Shown here piece after piece: positions 44,863-45,408 of a stretch of DNA of 57,351 bases. Source of the DNA: Terriglobia bacterium (GTDB lineage: Bacteria; Acidobacteriota; Terriglobia; Bryobacterales; Bryobacteraceae). Within the stretch, counting starts at the first letter, position 1. Each line of letters begins with the position of its first letter. Both the position numbers and the translations under genes were made by a program. The notes under the pieces are model-generated. The model saw nothing but the letters and a program-made list of their open reading frames with translations, was not told where the DNA came from and searched no databases. The stretch spans positions 1-57,351 of the forward strand of contig JAJPJN010000065.1 of assembly GCA_021324185.1 (NCBI GenBank), in the 5' to 3' direction.

Positions 44863-45408
44863 ATGGACAAACCTCCCGCTCCCGGAGAACTTGCACCCGA
44901 TTTTGAATTGTTGGATTCAACCGGAACAGAGCGCCGCTTATCCGATTTGGTAGCGGAAGGCCCGCTCGTCCTGCTGTTCTATCGCGGATATTGGTGACCG
45001 TTTTGCCTTCGCCAGTTGGCGGATTACCGCAACCATTACGGCGAAATTCGCGCAGGCGGTGCGCAACTCGTGGCCGTTTCCGTCGATCCGCCCGATCGAT
45101 CGCAGGCATTGCGGCAACAACTGGACTTGCCGTTTCCGATCTTGTGCGACACCTCACGGCGCGTCGTGCGGGAATGGCACATCTACAATCCGCGCGAGCA
45201 CGGCGGAATCGCCCAACCCGCCGTGTTTATTATCGATCCGGATCGCAGGGTCCGCTACGGCACAGTTGATTCGGTGTCGAAGCGGACTTCAGCGGCGGAG
45301 AGTCTGCGTGCTCTGAGCAGCAGGGAAATCGTGAATCTACAGCGCAAGCGTTATATTCCACAAATGCGAGACTGGTTCCGCGCTTTACGGAATTTACTTC
45401 GACGCTGA
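44863..45408 (+). CDS. Candidate selenoprotein: peroxiredoxin/thioredoxin-fold (AhpC/TSA-like) with UPFC redox motif
   Basis: Starting at ATG 44863 the frame reads MDKPPAPGELAPDFELLDST ... LVLLFYRGYW, then TGA at 44995-44997 (codon 45), then PFCLRQLADYRNHYGEI and on to a normal stop at 45408, 181 residues in all. Relatives have FYRG(D/Y)WCPFC here, so TGA replaces exactly the first Cys of CxxC. Sequence on both sides is well conserved in type (APDFEL at the start; LVAVSVDPPDRSQALRQQL; FPILCDTSR; AVFIIDP). A hairpin with apical loop 17 nt after the TGA could be the SECIS. The straightforward reading is selenocysteine insertion; a frame-neutral sequencing error (TGT or TGC to TGA) or a pseudogene are the alternatives. 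It would reduce peroxides or other disulfides in the cytosol. Ordinary gene callers would start it at TTG 45016 or miss its N-terminus. Confidence 0.8.
45008..45023 (+). promoter_or_regulatory. Putative bacterial SECIS hairpin
   Basis: Directly after the in-frame TGA (44995-44997), TTCGCC (45008-45013) pairs with GGCGGA (45018-45023), giving six pairs with one T-G wobble and the apical loop AGTT. The loop starts 17 nt after TGA and contains a G-U, both as expected for bacterial SECIS elements, which are bound by SelB. The stem is short and the loop small, so this is a candidate rather than a proof. Confidence 0.6.

Follow-up and report, generated by a model that had tools for sequence, protein, structure and literature searches.

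A conserved in-frame UGA in a peroxiredoxin-like gene of Bryobacteraceae points to a selenoprotein with a thioredoxin-like UPFC motif

Introduction

Bacterial selenoproteins of the peroxiredoxin-like (Prx-like) kind, with UXXC in place of TXXU, were among the known families by 2005, represented by 22 sequences (PMC1088965). The same source describes the bacterial SECIS element as a hairpin directly after the UGA with a small, G-holding apical loop. Entries elsewhere include Prx-like 1 (pfam00578, UxxC; PMC2398784), Prx-like thiol:disulfide oxidoreductase (PF00578, UxxC/UxxU; PMC13188914, PMC9312934), and a table row under the latter name (PMC5029168). For the Acidobacteria, 3 families comprising 4 selenoproteins were reported in 2006 (PMC1794560), and one Acidobacteriota genome is credited with 3 known selenoprotein genes (PMC12013277). 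A related situation is found in cyanobacterial PRX-like proteins having a CxxC motif, in which the second Cys corresponds to the peroxidatic Cys and the remaining triad is missing (PMC3514251).

Here we analyzed a gene within a 57,351-nucleotide stretch of DNA from a Terriglobia bacterium of the Bryobacteraceae (contig JAJPJN010000065.1 of assembly GCA_021324185.1), referred to below as the window. An earlier note on this DNA had proposed an unannotated selenoprotein, remarking that Sec-containing Prx-like proteins are known in bacteria, which the UXXC proteins described in 2005 uphold (PMC1088965). The gene is almost certainly that of a selenoprotein. It adds to the UxxC Prx-like kind, which was itself in print by 2005, and resembles the members of that kind in having a PF00578 domain, Sec as the first residue of a thioredoxin-like UxxC, a SECIS-type hairpin right after the UGA, and homologues with Cys. 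The published reference protein of that kind is WP_010940744.1, and the likeness drawn here is one of domain, motif, and description. No paper naming the clade to which the window gene belongs was found among the open-licence papers searched.

Results

The frame is interrupted once, within an AhpC/TSA domain

The frame beginning with the ATG at 44863 has TGA as codon 45 and, when this codon is read through, continues with no other stop to residue 181 and a terminal TGA at 45406-45408 (Table 1). The earlier note had placed the TGA at the first Cys of a CxxC motif, with family-like sequence on both sides and an open frame beyond, and all three observations held. The motif is UPFC, a UxxC motif in which Sec45 takes the first position of the CxxC type, where homologues have Cys. 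With Cys placed at residue 45, the product matched AhpC-TSA (PF00578) at 113.4 bits (cut-off 26) over residues 8-132, thus spanning codon 45, and Redoxin at 69.1 bits (cut-off 26.6). In the ORF list made with translation table 11, this frame is represented by just a 130-residue stretch downstream of the codon-45 TGA. Gene finders that treat every TGA as a stop would truncate the gene in this manner, and the conserved clade described below may be under-reported because of it.

Table 1. Features of the UGA-containing gene in the window
Feature	Coordinates	Strand	Remarks
Gene, almost certainly of a selenoprotein; AhpC/TSA fold, thioredoxin-like UPFC motif	44863..45408	+	181 residues plus TGA stop
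In-frame TGA, codon/residue 45, putatively read as selenocysteine	44995..44997	+	TGA in 13/13 clade loci; Cys in 87/88 non-TGA homologous loci
Cys48, partner of Sec45 in UxxC	45004..45006	+	Aligned to peroxidatic Cys of peroxiredoxins
Cys95	45145..45147	+	This clade only: 13/13 vs 0/105 other loci
Pro119, at thioredoxin cis-proline place	45217..45219	+	13/13 in clade; presumed role
SECIS-type hairpin UUCGCC-AGUU-GGCGGA, 6 pairs	45008..45023	+	Core CGCC-AGUU-GGCG at 45010-45021; loop AGUU at 45014-45017

The top NCBIfam match of the protein was SelL-related redox protein (NF040769), which was also matched by all 39 rows of the alignment described below at 1e-5, as was the thiol peroxidase PRK09437. 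The window protein scored 54.5 bits against NF040769, far under the curated cut-off of 120, and assignment to that family was rejected. The flanking ORFs, one DinB-like and one with a RibD_C domain, both lie on the opposite strand. When the regions around the 13 clade genes were compared (ORFs of at least 90 residues, E 1e-15; some regions shortened by contig ends), the gene itself was the only group present in all 13. Outside its own stretch a single group was shared, by 3 of the 13 regions, and no neighbor common to more than 3 regions pointed to a substrate.

The UGA is conserved in a clade under purifying selection

Orthologues were found in 12 other genomes, 10 from the same family and 2 (L125 and L126) from another family of the same class. 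They align with the window protein over at least residues 5-177 at 47-71% protein identity, and all 12 have TGA at codon 45, answering the earlier note's question of whether orthologues share it. The family search (237 genomes, E <= 1e-20) returned 23 matches in 22 genomes, 22 with TGA and 1 with Cys at codon 45. In the source genome (G000) the window gene was the only match at this threshold, and in the ten other family genomes with an orthologue (57-70% identity) the codon was TGA in each, with one fragment, L044, in addition. The phylum search (396 genomes, E <= 1e-22) gave 17 matches including the window gene itself, 10 with TGA and 7 with Cys.

Among the 88 homologous loci without TGA the column holds Cys in 87 and Thr in 1, a point that the earlier note had suggested checking. 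A peptide-pattern scan of named genome contigs, several of the closest of which are from Acidobacteria, supplied 80 of these loci (79 Cys, 1 Thr); one of the scan patterns contains the column-45 Cys and thus favors Cys forms, so that the scan has no bearing on the ratio of TGA to Cys. The 8 non-TGA loci obtained by whole-protein searches all had Cys.

Purifying selection acts downstream of the TGA within the clade. Over residues 46-140, third codon positions differed most in all 12 comparisons with the window gene, and dN/dS over residues 46-132 was 0.07-0.32 in 11 of these pairs, dS being saturated in that with L030. Three further pairs gave 0.22-0.44. Upstream dN/dS values for the pairs with L024, L125, and L126 were out of register and were not used. 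The stop codons of the orthologues (TAA, TAG, or TGA) lie no more than about two residues from that of the window gene, except that L024 runs off its contig. The fragment L044, which has TGA at the codon (G173:C153), was left out of the hairpin, codon, dN/dS, and residue counts; it repeats the L027 gene to about residue 105 and departs from it after that point, and is either a chimera made in assembly or a copy that has recombined.

For the alignment and tree, 39 of the 119 loci L022-L140 were picked for spread. The 13 clade rows formed a single branch (99/96). The 25 Sec rows require 5 label changes on the tree, but the starred branches force only 1; the tree is compatible with one origin of the Sec forms and with more than one. 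A second UGA clade (L033-L038, L040-L043, and L134) is made up of UPFCNSEL proteins whose open frames are longer and which have a hairpin of their own.

A small hairpin after the UGA is conserved beyond its coding requirement

The earlier note had noticed a stem-loop with a G-U-carrying loop beginning 17 nucleotides past the TGA, and it is there in the form described for bacterial SECIS elements, directly following the UGA and having a G in its small apical loop. If the base that follows the UGA is numbered +1, the loop is A17-G18-U19-U20. CGCC-AGUU-GGCG stands at +13 to +24 in all 13 clade loci, and the stretch from +13 to +26 reads CGCCAGTTGGCGGA in every one of them. Between residues 37 and 119 there are 29 columns in which an invariant residue has synonymous codons available. 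The codon was itself invariant in all 4 of those that lie in the hairpin (R50, Q51, L52, and A53) compared to 1 of the 25 elsewhere, that of Cys95 (Fisher p 2e-4). With these invariant hairpin codons, and the same TGA in 12 orthologues, the earlier argument that a random stop would be unlikely to fall at exactly codon 45 is well supported.

Comparison with the second UGA clade revealed paired changes. Its 11 loci have AACUCCG-AGUUR-CGGAGUU, with AGUU likewise at +17 to +20. Between the two clades both sides of pairs 16 and 14 have changed, and pairing is kept in 24 of 24 loci; at pair 13 both sides changed in 5 of 11 and one side in 6 of 11. Pair 11 also changed on both sides and is formed in 11 of 13 loci of the window clade and 10 of 11 of the second, whereas pair 10, at the outer end of the stem, is present in 10 of the 11 second-clade loci but in only 1 of 13 in the window clade.

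We then applied a mechanical rule requiring a loop of 3-7 bases with G in the first two, a loop start between +14 and +30, 4 or more pairs, and an energy of <= -4, this last cut-off having been set by hand. Such a hairpin was present in 13/13 loci of the window clade, 11/11 of the second clade, 4/6 UGA loci on other branches, and 7/87 Cys loci, compared to 1.4, 0.8, 0.6, and 3.8 expected from synonymous shuffles whose codon pool was drawn from all loci jointly. The remaining 80 Cys loci had none. Taken together, the hairpin is present at 28 of the 30 UGA loci compared to 7 of the 87 Cys loci (Fisher p 3e-18, for related and hence not independent sequences).

The folding energy of the window sequence alone (46 nucleotides) was -9.3 kcal/mol, with a z of -0.68, and 53 of 200 shuffles folded at least as well. 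Energy by itself was accordingly dropped as proof; because the single-sequence fold is no better than shuffles, support for the hairpin comes from its conservation. Apart from this energy, the gene passed every test of a selenoprotein that was run. The small, strictly conserved CGCC-AGUU-GGCG hairpin would allow recognition by SelB to be tested cleanly.

The genome encodes the selenocysteine machinery

Absence of sel genes would have spoken against the earlier proposal, but profile searches of the source genome (4.70 Mb in 184 contigs, 96.85% complete) detected selA (500.9 bits, cut-off 267.9), selB (376.7 bits, cut-off 242.25), and selD (364.5 bits, cut-off 125), along with a tRNA-Sec at 72 bits (gathering score 47) that ARAGORN also reported as tRNA-SeC with anticodon tca (UCA). 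All four lie on contigs other than that of the window. A second match to the tRNA-Sec model, on contig C57, exceeded the gathering score at 49.1 bits and proved to be a tRNA-Ser with anticodon TGA.

A selA match (E <= 1e-60) was obtained in 189 of the 237 family genomes, including all 11 that have the clade gene; because so many family genomes match selA, this co-occurrence carries little weight. The second UGA form is found in 10 family genomes, 8 of which are in the selA list; G041 (71% complete) had no match, and G171 is absent from the matches.

Sec45 lies at the Thr/Ser place of the peroxiredoxin motif

The AlphaFold2 model of the protein was confident (pLDDT 91.0, pTM 0.85), and its closest PDB folds are peroxiredoxins (5epf, TM 0.73 by query length). 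In alignments to the solved peroxiredoxins 2ywn, 5epf, and 2cx3, residue 45 falls on the Thr/Ser of PxxxT/SxxC, Arg41 on the Pro of the motif, and Cys48 on the peroxidatic Cys. Pro119, which presumably has the role of the thioredoxin cis-proline, aligns with an Arg in 2ywn that we take to be the catalytic Arg.

Because Sec45 aligns with the Thr/Ser and Cys48 with the peroxidatic Cys, the UPFC motif is of the thioredoxin-like type. The earlier note's phrase for this position, a TGA at the redox cysteine, is imprecise: the TGA stands at the first Cys of CxxC, and the peroxidatic place belongs to Cys48. The residues that define a canonical peroxiredoxin, PxxxTxxC together with the catalytic Arg, are replaced by R41, U45, and P119 with Cys48 kept, and we rejected a canonical assignment for this reason. 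The window gene presents a case in which Sec is retained at the thioredoxin position within a peroxiredoxin fold.

In the 39-row alignment R41 and Cys48 were invariant, and P119 was present in 33 rows (Ala in 5, a gap in 1). Recounting on all loci except L044, Cys48 was found in 13/13 clade and 105/105 other loci, and P119 in 13/13 and 82/105, 15 of the matches stopping short of it. Position 95 was Cys in every clade member and in none of the other 105 loci, which have mainly Ser (67) or Tyr (18). Among the loci compared here this third cysteine, Cys95, thus marks the window clade.

Discussion

We consider it probable that the window gene encodes a thioredoxin-fold selenoprotein with oxidoreductase chemistry. 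A ribosome on the mRNA would meet the UGA at codon 45, SelB with Sec-tRNA (anticodon UCA) would bind the AGUU-loop hairpin 13-24 bases past it, and selenocysteine would be inserted. The product would carry Sec45-Pro-Phe-Cys48 at the start of the first helix, following strand 35-39. Sec45 could then act as the attacking selenolate, opening a disulfide or another oxidized substrate and forming a selenenylsulfide with Cys48 that a cellular thiol donor would reset.

An alternative explanation is that the UGA arose by sequencing error or genuinely inactivates a pseudogene; in its favor, the stop interrupts the frame under table 11 and the ORF list shows a 130-residue piece. An error is very unlikely because the same TGA occurs in 12 other genomes; these orthologues share only 47-71% protein identity with the window protein and are under purifying selection after the TGA, and we give either version of this explanation almost no credence. 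That a changed code or plain read-through places some other amino acid at the UGA is scarcely more credible, even though the identity of the inserted residue is deduced. The genome holds the Sec set including tRNA-Sec with anticodon UCA, the window gene uses TGA as its own terminal stop at a place where its orthologues stop with TAA, TAG, or TGA, homologues carry Cys at column 45, and three other genes of the same genome have TGA at places known for Sec with a hairpin after each.

The chemistry leaves more room for argument. A real selenoprotein could function as a peroxidase, with Cys48 attacking the peroxide and the sulfenic acid being resolved by Sec45 or Cys95. The fold and best solved relatives are those of peroxiredoxins, which act on peroxides, and Cys48 occupies their peroxidatic place throughout the clade and the other 105 loci, points that count against the preferred oxidoreductase chemistry. 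So does the cyanobacterial work, in which CxxC PRX-like proteins are argued not to be protein disulfide oxidoreductases (PMC3514251). The cyanobacterial PRX-like proteins resemble the window protein in having CxxC near the N-terminus with the second Cys equated to the peroxidatic Cys, PRX-like2 being without the other catalytic residues; they differ in being described with Cys (PMC3514251). Nonetheless, none of the 13 clade members keeps the Pro or the Thr of PxxxTxxC or the Arg present in 2ywn. With Sec in place of that Thr and the remaining catalytic residues of peroxiredoxins lost, a thioredoxin-like oxidoreductase is predicted from the residue pattern to be the likelier function, and we regard the peroxidase as improbable.

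The clade might also represent a distinct selenoenzyme with a three-residue redox relay, in which attack by Sec45 leads to a selenenylsulfide with Cys48 and the clade-specific Cys95 hands the oxidation to a partner. Cys95 is the last residue of model strand 93-95, and the strand order of the fold would place it on the face of the sheet toward the active site. Such a Sec-Cys-Cys relay is a speculative proposal that we think unlikely to be right, and none was found for the Prx-like UxxC group in the literature consulted here.

Searches of the source genome with PF00578 and Fdh-alpha revealed three further TGA-interrupted matches, whose frames were picked by protein context among several TGA frames and whose hairpins are predicted folds, with loops GUC, GGU, and GUU, considered without a shuffle control. 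L155 (G000:C10:8393-8767, minus strand) is an AhpC/TSA gene interrupted by a single in-frame TGA, which falls at the peroxidatic place in FTGGU (TxxU); the hairpin after it is GCAUUCCA-GUC-UGGAAUGC. It seems to be a Sec peroxiredoxin of the TxxU type, which has Sec at the peroxidatic residue; the window protein belongs to the same superfamily, but its Sec lies three residues before that place. L163 (G000:C91:24140-24574, plus strand) is a thioredoxin-fold gene with TGA in GSYTUPPF and the hairpin CGGGA-GGU-UCCCG, whose product we take to resemble deiodinases or deiodinase-like selenoproteins. L171 (G000:C68:10137-10886, plus strand) is formate-dehydrogenase-alpha-like, with TGA in IUHSS and the hairpin GGUCCCCA-GUU-UGGGGACC.

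Two of the UGA homologues depart from the usual form. L132 has the motif WUGAC instead of WUPFC, and the mechanical hairpin rule gave nothing good there. In L140, a UGA-containing Prx-like domain, the frame continues for 445 residues past the TGA through what appear by eye to be beta-propeller-like repeats.
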